Assembly (NCBI GenBank): GCA_005893225.1
Contig: VBOT01000052.1
Location: 1 to 56,883, forward strand
Direction of reading: 5' to 3'
Source of the DNA: Candidatus Eiseniibacteriota bacterium
GTDB lineage: Bacteria; Eisenbacteria; RBG-16-71-46
DNA length: 56,883 bases
Shown: positions 32,100 to 35,453 of the stretch, in pieces
Numbering within the stretch: position 1 is the stretch's first letter
Layout: each line of letters opens with the position of its first letter
Program-made: the position numbers and the translations under genes
Notes under the pieces: generated by a model
The model's input: the letters and a program-made list of their open reading frames with translations, nothing else
Database searches by the model: none
What the model was told of the DNA's origin: nothing

Positions 32100-33227
32100 T
32101 CAGGAAGCCACGGCGGCCCGCCGCTCGATCTCCCCGACCATGCGCTCCGCCAGGACGCTCCAGTCGTGCGGCCGCGCCAGGGTCCGGAGACGCTCGCTGT
32201 CGCGCGGCCCATCGAGCGCGCGGGCCACCGCCCCGGCCATCTCGGCGGGATCGCGCGCGAAGCTCAGGTGCGGGGGCGCGGGCCTCAAGTCCAGCACCGG
32301 AGTCGTCACCACCGGGACGCCGGCCGCCAGGTACTGGTAGACCTTGTTGGGATTGATACCCTGGACGTACCTGTCGTTCGCCCGGAAAGGGATCACTCCC
32401 ACGTCGAGGGCCTGCATGAAGGCGGGGATCTCCGCGTAGGGTCTGGGCCCCAGCACCGCCACCCCGTCGCGGGCGCCGAGCTCCCGCATCTCCCTCTCGG
32501 TGGCGGGATCGCCCGGGCCCACCAGCACCAGCGTCCCGCCGCGACGCGAGCGCCTGAGGGCCTCCAAGGCCTCGAAGTCGAGGAAGTGGGACATCAGGCC
32601 GACGTAGCCGATCAGCGGGCGCGGGAGTGCCATGAGCTCCGCCGGGACCGGCCGCGGGGCCTCGAAGTGGGACAGCTCGACGCCGTTCCCGATCATCACC
32701 AGGGGAAGGCTCGTCTCGCGGGCGAGCTCGCGGCGGTAGAATTCCGAGACCACGAAGAACACGTCCACCGAGGCAAGCATCCGGCGCCAGTACTCGGCGG
32801 CCCAGCGGGGCGTCCTGGCGAACTGAAACGGACTGTCATTGAAGTCGTAGAATAACAACTTCCTCGGGAGCCGCGAAACGGCTCCGGCGCAGTAGATGTT
32901 CGAGGTCATCACCACCGGGCGGGGCTCGACGCCGAGCCTTCGCAGCATGCGCCCGAGGTAGGCTTCCGCGGCGCGCTCGACCGCGGCGCGCGCGGGCGGG
33001 AGATCGATCAGGCGGTTGTAGAGCGCGCTCGTCGTGCCGGGCTTGAGGAACGGCACCGTGAAGGTGGTGACGTTGCCCTCGCGCCGCGGCCGCCAGGGGT
33101 CGCTCCCGCCCTGGGCCGGCGGCTGGGCAAAGAACACCCGCCATCGCTCCGGGAAGCGCGACAGCAGGAATTGCTTGCGGGTCCGGAAGTAGCCCCAGCG
33201 CACCTCGGAGAGGACGACCAAGTCCAC
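32100..33227 (-). CDS. Glycosyltransferase (TuaH-like, GT-B)
   Basis: A 375-residue GT-B protein similar in layout to TuaH-type transferases. The N-terminal part reads DLVVLSEVRWGYFRTRKQFL, then LLFYDFNDSPFQFARTPRWA. The C-terminal domain has LIGYVGLMSHFLDFEALEAL, GTLVLVGPGDP and NPNKVYQYLAAGVPVVTTPV. The start is GTG at 33227. No Shine-Dalgarno is visible before it, because a 145-bp inverted-repeat element ends three bases upstream of the start codon. That may have altered its translation. Substrate unknown. Confidence 0.87.
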   Translation of the reverse strand: MDLVVLSEVRWGYFRTRKQFLLSRFPERWRVFFAQPPAQGGSDPWRPRREGNVTTFTVPFLKPGTTSALYNRLIDLPPARAAVERAAEAYLGRMLRRLGVEPRPVVMTSNIYCAGAVSRLPRKLLFYDFNDSPFQFARTPRWAAEYWRRMLASVDVFFVVSEFYRRELARETSLPLVMIGNGVELSHFEAPRPVPAELMALPRPLIGYVGLMSHFLDFEALEALRRSRRGGTLVLVGPGDPATEREMRELGARDGVAVLGPRPYAEIPAFMQALDVGVIPFRANDRYVQGINPNKVYQYLAAGVPVVTTPVLDLRPAPPHLSFARDPAEMAGAVARALDGPRDSERLRTLARPHDWSVLAERMVGEIERRAAVAS

Positions 33228-33229
33228 TA

Positions 33230-33374
33230 GCAGGCTTCTGAAAGCCGGCGCCTGCCGGGCACCCGGCCGTCAGGCCGGGTCGGGCTTCGTCGCTCCTCGT
33301 TGCGACGTATCTTGCAGATACGACTCACTCGTCGCTCCTCGCCGCCTGGCAGGCGTCGGCCTTCAGAAGCCTGC
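33230..33374. repeat. 145-bp inverted-repeat element (MITE/REPIN-like)
   Basis: A 27-base left arm at 33230-33256 (GCAGGCTTCTGAAAGCCGGC...) and right arm at 33348-33374 are reverse complements with two mismatches. Inside are CCCGGCC-GTCA-GGCCGGG, CGTCGC-8 nt-GCGACG, GTATC-TTGCA-GATAC, and a direct repeat of TCGTCGCTCCTCG. The element exactly fills the gap between two genes: its right arm supplies the asnB stop codon, and its left arm ends three bases before the next start. No transposase and no clear target duplication are seen. It could also act as a transcription terminator or structured RNA. Confidence 0.7.
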
Positions 33375-35453
33375 AGCCCCAGCCGGCTGGCGGAGCGACG
33401 CGCCCGATCGCGGCTGGTGGTGCAGGGAGAGCACCCACGGGGAGGGGGCGGTGAGCCGCGGATCGCCGACGATGAAGCGTCGCGCCCAGGAGTCGAGGGA
33501 AAGCCAGCGCCAGACCTGGAGCCCGATCGGACGCCGGCCGGCGAGGTAATCGTCCAGCTCGCGGCCGAGCACCACCGGGTCGAGCCAATCGTGCAACGGC
33601 CCCACCGAGAGCAGCCGGCGCCTCAGCTCCCCGGCGAACCTCCCTCGCAGCCACAGGTCGGAGGGGGTCTCGAAGCCCATCTTGTCGCGGCGCTCGAGCA
33701 CCGGGCTGGGAATCCGGTCGCCCAGACTGCGCCTCAGGATCGCCTTCGTGGTGGTCCCCTCCAGGCGCTGCTCGTCGGGCAGCGAGAACACGAACTCCAC
33801 CAGGCGGTAGTCGAGGAACGGGAGCCGGGTCTCGATCGAGAACGCCATGCTGTTCCGATCCTCGTAACGCAGCAGCGAGGGAAGCAGTCGCTGGAGCGTG
33901 TCGAAGGCGAGCTGGCGCGAGAGCGCGCTCGGGAACTCGGCCGGGGGCCGGGGAGGGCCCGAGCCCGGCCGGCGAGCGGCGCGCAGCGCCGCGGAGAGCG
34001 CGCGATCCTTGCCCTGCCCGAAGCGCCGCCGCAGGGCGCCAACCAGGGTTCCCGGCAGCCACGGCTCGAGGGTCAGGGCGAGCGTCGTGGCCCATCCGAG
34101 CCGGTCGGCCACCGGCCCGACGAGCCTCCGGAACTCGGCCAGCCTCCCGCTCGCGAGCAGGTCGCGCAGCCGGATCGGGAGGTAGCGGAAGTAGCCGGCC
34201 AGGGTCTCGTCGCCGCCCTGGCCGTCGAGCAGCACCTTGAGCCCCGCCCGGTGTGCCAGCTCCATCACCTTCCACTGCGAGTAGAGCCCGGGCCCCGCCG
34301 TCGGCTCGTCCTGCGCGGCGGTGAGCCGGTCGAAGACCGACCAGAAGTCCCCGCCGTCGGGCACGGCGAGGTGCGAGACCGCGCCGGTCGCCTCGGTCAC
34401 CGCGCGCACGTAGCGGCGCTCGTCGTACGCAGGCCCCTCGTTGTAGGCGCAGGTGAACGCGTGCAGCGGCCGTCCGGCGAGGCGCGAGGCGGTGGTCACC
34501 ACCGCGCTCGAGTCGATGCCGCCGGACAGGCAGGATCCCACCTCGACGTCGGCGCGCAGCCGGAGCGAGACCGAGTCGGTGAACAGCTCGGCGAAGCGCC
34601 GCGACCAATCCTCCGGCCCACCCTCGGCGCGCGCGGCCGAGTCGATGCGCCACCAGCGCTCGATCCTCAGGCCGTTCTCGCCCACGGCGAGCCAGTGGCC
34701 GGCGGGAAGCTGCCAGAGCCCGTCGAAGAACGTGTGCGCCTCGTGGTCCACCCAGTCCAGGGCCAGGAGGTCGAACACCGCCTCGAGGCGCGCGGCGATC
34801 GGCCGCCCCTGGGTGAGCACCAGCGCCTTGGGCTCGGAGGCGAACGCGAAGCGCTCCCCGTCCCACTGGTAGTAGAAGGGCTTGACCCCCAGGCGATCGC
34901 GGGCGCAGAAGAGCTCGCGCAGGCGGCCGTCCCAAATCGCGAACGCGAACATCCCGTTGAGCAGCGAGAGGCACTCGCGCCCGTGACGCCGGTAGGCGGC
35001 GAGGATCGCCTCCGTATCGCTCGTGCTCTGGAAGCGCTCCCCCTCGCGCTCGAGCTCCGAGCGCAGCTCGACGTGGTTGTAGACCTCGCCGTTGTAGGTG
35101 ATCCAGCACTCGCCGAGCGAGTCGCACATCGGCCCGTGCCCGCCGGGGCTCAGGTCGACGATCGCGAGGCGCCGGTTGACCAGGCCCACCTCGAAGCGCG
35201 CCTCCCCCGGGCCGTTCGCGCGCACCGCTCCGGTGCCGGTCGAGACCCAGCGTCCCGGGGCGTAACGGTGCGCGCTCTCGAACACCGCGGACGGCGTGTC
35301 GGGTCCGCCCAGGGTCAGAGCCCCGATCCGCGGGTCGATCAGCGCGAGCCCCTCGTCGTCGGGTCCGCGATGCCGCAGCAGCCGGGACATGTGATGCAGC
35401 CGGCCGATGTCGACCCGGTGACGGGGCTGGTACTCGCCGGCAATGCCGCACAT
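33363..35453 (-). CDS. asnB: Asparagine synthase-like glutamine amidotransferase (AsnB family)
   Basis: A 696-residue two-domain enzyme. The N-terminal glutaminase domain begins MCGIAGEY, so Cys2 is the nucleophile after Met removal, with RHRGPDDEG and NGEVYN. The ATP-dependent synthetase domain has the PP-loop SGGIDSS at residues 310-316 and LLDGQGGDETLAGYFRY. In glycan loci such proteins often amidate uronic acids rather than making free asparagine; which applies here is not decidable. About 40 extra residues lie in the glutaminase domain (residues 43-86). The last residues and stop codon come from the 145-bp repeat element, so the original C-terminus may be altered. Confidence 0.88.
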   Translation of the reverse strand: MCGIAGEYQPRHRVDIGRLHHMSRLLRHRGPDDEGLALIDPRIGALTLGGPDTPSAVFESAHRYAPGRWVSTGTGAVRANGPGEARFEVGLVNRRLAIVDLSPGGHGPMCDSLGECWITYNGEVYNHVELRSELEREGERFQSTSDTEAILAAYRRHGRECLSLLNGMFAFAIWDGRLRELFCARDRLGVKPFYYQWDGERFAFASEPKALVLTQGRPIAARLEAVFDLLALDWVDHEAHTFFDGLWQLPAGHWLAVGENGLRIERWWRIDSAARAEGGPEDWSRRFAELFTDSVSLRLRADVEVGSCLSGGIDSSAVVTTASRLAGRPLHAFTCAYNEGPAYDERRYVRAVTEATGAVSHLAVPDGGDFWSVFDRLTAAQDEPTAGPGLYSQWKVMELAHRAGLKVLLDGQGGDETLAGYFRYLPIRLRDLLASGRLAEFRRLVGPVADRLGWATTLALTLEPWLPGTLVGALRRRFGQGKDRALSAALRAARRPGSGPPRPPAEFPSALSRQLAFDTLQRLLPSLLRYEDRNSMAFSIETRLPFLDYRLVEFVFSLPDEQRLEGTTTKAILRRSLGDRIPSPVLERRDKMGFETPSDLWLRGRFAGELRRRLLSVGPLHDWLDPVVLGRELDDYLAGRRPIGLQVWRWLSLDSWARRFIVGDPRLTAPSPWVLSLHHQPRSGASLRQPAGAAGF

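Follow-up and report, generated by a model that had tools for sequence, protein, structure and literature searches.

A probable MITE-like palindromic element with a structured core at the asnB-glycosyltransferase junction of a Candidatus Eiseniibacteriota bacterium

Between asnB and a glycosyltransferase gene in the window, a stretch of 56,883 nucleotides from a Candidatus Eiseniibacteriota bacterium, lies a palindrome of 145 bases. It appears to represent a single copy of a small mobile element that inserted at the junction of the two genes. It is probably a non-autonomous, MITE-like element with ends of the IS1182 type, which would have been moved in trans into a CTAG and which carries a portable, folded core.

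In mechanistic terms, the outer arms would be terminal inverted repeats like those of IS1182-family insertion sequences in sister genomes, and an IS1182-type transposase may have moved the element into the CTAG, a YTAR site, at the asnB-glycosyltransferase junction of the operon. The core would be portable: one of its strands is predicted to fold back into a hairpin in which tandem G.A modules flank a covarying pair, and the core may have been joined repeatedly to the ends of different insertion sequences. The one-stranded fold would serve the element itself, as single-stranded DNA during mobilisation or replication or as an RNA of its own, and not the host mRNA.

Anatomy of the element and its insertion site

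The palindrome that had been described in an initial annotation is real, with arms slightly longer than the 27 bases then given, and its inner hairpins are a side cassette and an apical hairpin (Table 1). The 13-nt direct repeat TCGTCGCTCCTCG, also pointed out there, is exact, at 33287 and 33329, and corresponds to the tandem-G.A module read twice on one strand. The element is 145 bp long, within the MITE size limit of 500 bp, and has no transposase gene. RNA folding gives -103 kcal/mol as compared to -61.7 +/- 4.0 in shuffles, and it goes far beyond the shuffles on both strands of the palindrome (z = -10.4 and -8.8). As originally described, the element lies flush between two genes. That it has no coding content is nearly correct, except that the right arm contains the last asnB codons and the stop codon now in use, TGA (33363-33365).

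Table 1. Features of the element and the adjoining genes (positions in the window)
Feature	Position	Strand	Remarks
Left arm, terminal inverted repeat	33230..33260		31 nt; 90% of it pairs with the right arm
Right arm, terminal inverted repeat	33344..33374		31 nt, pairs with the left arm at 90%
MITE-like element proper, CAGGCTTCTGAAAG...CTTCAGAAGCCTG	33231..33373	minus	Folded purine strand is the minus strand
CTAG, left edge, putative YTAR target site	33227..33230		Based on the sequence and the uninterrupted junctions of G009 and G004
CAG, right edge, putative decayed second target copy	33374..33376		CTAG minus one base; compared with the perfect target duplications of G012
Side hairpin cassette, ACCCGGCC...GGCCGGGT	33261..33280		Not in all copies; lies to one side of the core or the other
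Tandem-G.A module, 3' half, ACGAGGAGC	33292..33300	minus	Sequence on the minus strand
Tandem-G.A module, 5' half, GCGACGAGT	33327..33335	minus	Sequence on the minus strand
Apical hairpin, CGTATCT...AGATACG	33306..33322	minus	
asnB, asparagine synthase with GATase domain, PF00733	33363..35453	minus	
Glycosyltransferase group 1, PF13692	32100..33227	minus	GTG start (33225-33227) touches the CTAG

In eight sister genera (genomes G001-G005 and G008-G010), the asnB and glycosyltransferase orthologues either overlap (gap of -1) or are 6-14 nt apart, while in the window they are separated by 135 nt with the element in between. Therefore, the element is an insertion. The uninterrupted junction in G009 and G004 reads TAGTG, in which the stop and the start codon share a G, and the glycosyltransferase side of the window still reads CTAGTG on the minus strand, matching this ancestral overlap. 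On the asnB side the element is bordered by CAG, one base less than CTAG, which we infer to be the second target copy in a decayed form.

A multi-copy family with variable ends

A search of the element's own genome yielded many partial matches to its central part, and a consensus derived from these led to full copies with ends CAGGCTGCTGAAAAA...TTTTTCAGCAGCCTG. With a covariance model of the core (R1), at least 13 copies are found dispersed in this genome and 16 of the 20 host-family genomes have a match; 27 other genomes of the phylum gave no match with R1. The named matches are MAGs of Candidatus Eisenbacteria. The earlier suggestion of a mobile element that is non-autonomous and may belong to an undescribed family is supported by these multiple copies, by the site being empty in eight sister genera, and by the target duplications and the insertion sequence with the same ends that are described below.

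Some copies have a side hairpin GGACCC...GGGTNCCCC, on one side of the core or on the other. Shorter palindromes of 48-78 bp, with CAGGCTGCTGAAAAA-type ends and reduced or different interiors, occur in genome G000 (C18:610-682, C10:9959-10031, C45:29685-29762 and C101:91-138), and some of them have only the side hairpin ACCCACAC..GTGTGGGT. At 1573-1704 and 4497-4576 of L110 (G000:C212), such ends border, or stand at the start of, A-rich stretches that have no relation to the core, and one of these end-bearing sequences starts right at the stop codon, TAG, of a gene resembling nadB. Two copies of the sister genome G012 (C142:32750-32940 and C124:11131-11320; L097 and L099) share an additional core segment of about 70 bp, which suggests an amplified derivative.

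When a broader covariance model (R2, E<=1e-4) is applied to 385 genomes, the core is detected in 46 of them: 16 belong to the host family, 4 to other parts of the phylum and 26 lie outside it. Several of these genomes carry at least 10 copies. In many unrelated bacteria the core is thus present with other arms. The arms vary widely from genome to genome, and in many cases between copies of one genome (G302, G178), yet they stay complementary. Some copies in G007, G014 and G002 have TAGTGTNNCGT-type arms and flanks that fit a TA duplication; the core is therefore joined to two or more kinds of ends in one host family. Copies in G017, G040 and G045 (L285-L289, L291, L292) have long arms starting with CTAGCCGGGATTATTCATGAA or similar, as a third type of ends around a related core. 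Furthermore, copies in G217 (L223-L226) have a further copy of the terminal motif, TATACACAGCG-TCATAA, beyond the left arm, which looks like a duplication of the left end. Three IMG/VR contigs (L218, L219 and L220) contain the core according to a pattern search. Plasmid and phage collections gave no meaningful match to the element, four distant variants or a consensus, Rfam gave no relevant match for the window copy or ten distant loci, and a sequence-string search of the accessible literature returned nothing relevant to the element.

It could tentatively be imagined, although we hold this to be somewhat doubtful, that all these elements make up a pan-bacterial non-autonomous family, in which a tandem-G.A core folding on one strand is needed for spread and is combined with different transposon ends, of the YTAR/IS1182 type or the TA type. 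The usual pattern of MITEs, with fixed ends and a free interior, is the reverse of this.

A fold on one strand, close to stop codons

The structure of the core is supported by covariation, with 117 double changes in the R2 alignment versus 38 in shuffles. For 95 aligned elements, most of them outside the R2 model, the counts lean towards structure because the alignment was fitted to the model: 88.9% of the cells pair (61.2% in shuffles) and there are 682 double changes (201 in shuffles), with none of 500 shuffles reaching the observed values, and the covariation score is 0.678 (0.183 in shuffles and 0.06-0.11 in slid controls). Tandem G.A mismatches often flank a covarying pair in the core, always on one strand. 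Between the modules, the covarying pair is GC in 43, CG in 38, AT in 4 and TA in 3 of the 95 elements; an exact GA/GA is found in 64 of them for the inner module and in 43 for the outer one. In the 24-sequence seed, the corresponding numbers are 23 (inner) and 21 (outer).

Strand-symmetric mutation predicts equal numbers of G.T and A.C mismatches and of G.A and T.C mismatches. On the purine strand of the arms, however, G.T outnumbers A.C (138 versus 67, p = 8e-7) and G.A outnumbers T.C (186 versus 28), in arm alignments scored without pairing bias and with counts that are inflated by shared descent. Since both excesses are on the same strand in copies that are sense and in copies that are antisense to the adjoining gene, the purine strand is the selected form, independent of host transcription. 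We infer that the folded core acts as single-stranded DNA or as an element-specific RNA. In 71 copies with contexts of up to 20 kb (L309-L368), the GC skew of the folded strand is negative in 48 (p = 0.004), with the copies being non-independent and G138 (10 of 11) driving part of the effect; this may point to a replication-strand bias.

Gene 3' ends (78) are far commoner than gene 5' ends (16) within 20 nt of the elements, and many copies begin at, or within a few bases of, TAA, TAG or TGA. Gene calls are error-prone in GC-rich genomes, for which the training set was poor, and the window's own genes were miscalled; in the low-GC genomes alone, where the calls are most reliable, the numbers are 35 and 8. 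YTAR targets of the host family frequently include a stop codon, TAG or TAA, and an insertion there can therefore leave the upstream gene intact. YTAR targeting explains the TAA and TAG cases; the TGA cases, many of them in G138, must have a different cause, for example selection acting against other sites.

The strong covariation, the G-U wobble and the tight placement after stop codons would also suit an RNA or 3'-UTR element, a signal for processing, stability or termination that acts in the mRNA of the gene ending next to it. Such a role appears unlikely. The 3'-end genes have no preferred orientation with respect to the element (34 sense and 44 antisense, with gene calls error-prone in GC-rich genomes), and G.T exceeds A.C, and G.A exceeds T.C, on the same strand even where this strand is antisense to the gene. 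A folded strand that does not follow gene direction argues against a function in host mRNA. Furthermore, a scan of the element found no terminator or promoter pattern and no T-run after either arm, and there is no Rfam match. As to the structured RNA or terminator considered in the initial annotation, covariation in several phyla lends strong support to the structure; the terminator is not supported.

Ends, candidate transposase and relation to known systems

The copies in the sister genome G012 are fresher, and six of them lie between perfect 4-bp YTAR duplications (TTAG, TTAG, CTAA and three times CTAG), the first three of which are non-palindromic. The duplication of the window copy appears to have decayed, and the flanks of the G000 copies are decayed and without target duplications. 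YTAR is a documented target of IS5 (PMC10359306). An insertion sequence with 15-nt ends identical to those of the element, CAGGCTGCTGAAAAA, is present in G012 (1421 bp, G012:C110:17531-18951) and in G001 (1414 bp), the only two with matching ends among the family genomes searched. Its transposase has DUF772 and DDE_Tnp_1 domains and matches the IS1182 model NF033551 with 288 bits (cut-off 270), and also passes the cut-off of one IS5 model, NF033581 (NCBIfam). The two copies of this insertion sequence are bordered by CTAA/CTAG and CTAA/TTAG and lack matching direct repeats. It resembles the element in its ends and YTAR-like flanks, but it is longer (1.4 kb), encodes a transposase and is without the core.

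The matching ends suggest that the IS1182 transposase may move the element. In the element's own genome, an 88% complete draft, no IS1182 transposase was detected, which may be due to its fragmentation into 219 contigs. Most of the distant genomes searched gave no IS1182 matches, so that no common transposase is known. The distant carriers G381, G138 and G132 have IS1182 transposases, and the ends of the corresponding insertion sequences do not match the element arms.

All MITE characteristics that can be tested are found: small size and terminal inverted repeats, multiple copies, target duplications (G012), ends in common with an insertion sequence (G012, G001) and an empty orthologous site. 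Classical MITEs have ends in common with their insertion sequence. On the other hand, the arms differ even within one genome (G302, G178), whereas the terminal repeats of a DDE transposase should not differ between copies of one genome, and a conserved structure is not needed in the core of a classical MITE. To our knowledge, there is no MITE with a core conserved across phyla. The element is best described as MITE-like with an unusual pattern, in which the core is conserved and structured and the ends are variable. Chunjie, a MITE of Geobacter uraniireducens that sits in an operon (PMC10969869), and other MITEs resemble it in being short, non-coding, multi-copy and trans-mobilised by an insertion sequence, with terminal inverted repeats and, in young copies, target duplications; compared by description only, Chunjie differs from the present element with its cross-phylum structured core and its varying ends.

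A one-stranded hairpin with mismatches near stop codons is also reminiscent of REPINs; a Y1 (RAYT-type) tyrosine transposase would then mobilise it in single-stranded form, as DNA. Y1_Tnp genes occur in 9 of 12 carrier genomes, and one copy (L384, G014:C97) lies 0.14 kb from such a gene. This is nevertheless quite improbable: no Y1_Tnp is found in G217 (100% complete), G332 (95% complete) and G007, which have at least 10 copies each, 14 of the 15 Y1 loci examined have no adjoining element, and what is seen in G012, YTAR duplications together with IS1182-type ends, is in keeping with a DDE transposase. REP and REPIN sequences with their RAYT have in common with the element that they are hairpin repeats, often near stop codons and presumably with one strand folded, but several rich carriers here have no Y1 gene, and the 4-bp YTAR duplications and long duplex arms are further differences. 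The REPIN assignment proposed earlier is thus not supported. A palindrome generated by chance or locally by template switching, without any mobile history, deserves practically no credence: quasi-palindrome correction can produce concerted change of arms, but the dispersed copies already refute it, together with the core homologues in 46 genomes and the empty site in eight genera.

Other covarying mobile hairpins are already known. In one study, 250 'mobile/repeat sequence candidates' are reported, among them MRSC-65-2 with a repeated UYCCGG motif (PMC11109978). By their description, MRSC-65-2 and other candidates resemble the present element in having a single long covarying stem, many copies per genome, a distribution over diverse phyla, an inconsistent gene orientation and, sometimes, a transposase gene nearby. 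UYCCGG is absent from 166 of 173 aligned copies of the present element, and judged by the motif as described, the element is not MRSC-65-2; it may be identical to another of the 250 candidates.

If these views are correct, a structured module absent from Rfam would occur in about 8% of the bacterial genomes that were sampled beyond the host phylum (26 of about 338), frequently in at least 10 copies. A testable question that follows would be by what a tandem-G.A hairpin on one DNA strand is recognised while transposition or replication takes place. The occurrence of such palindromes directly after stop codons, where they add spacers to operons without breaking genes, would be explained as well.
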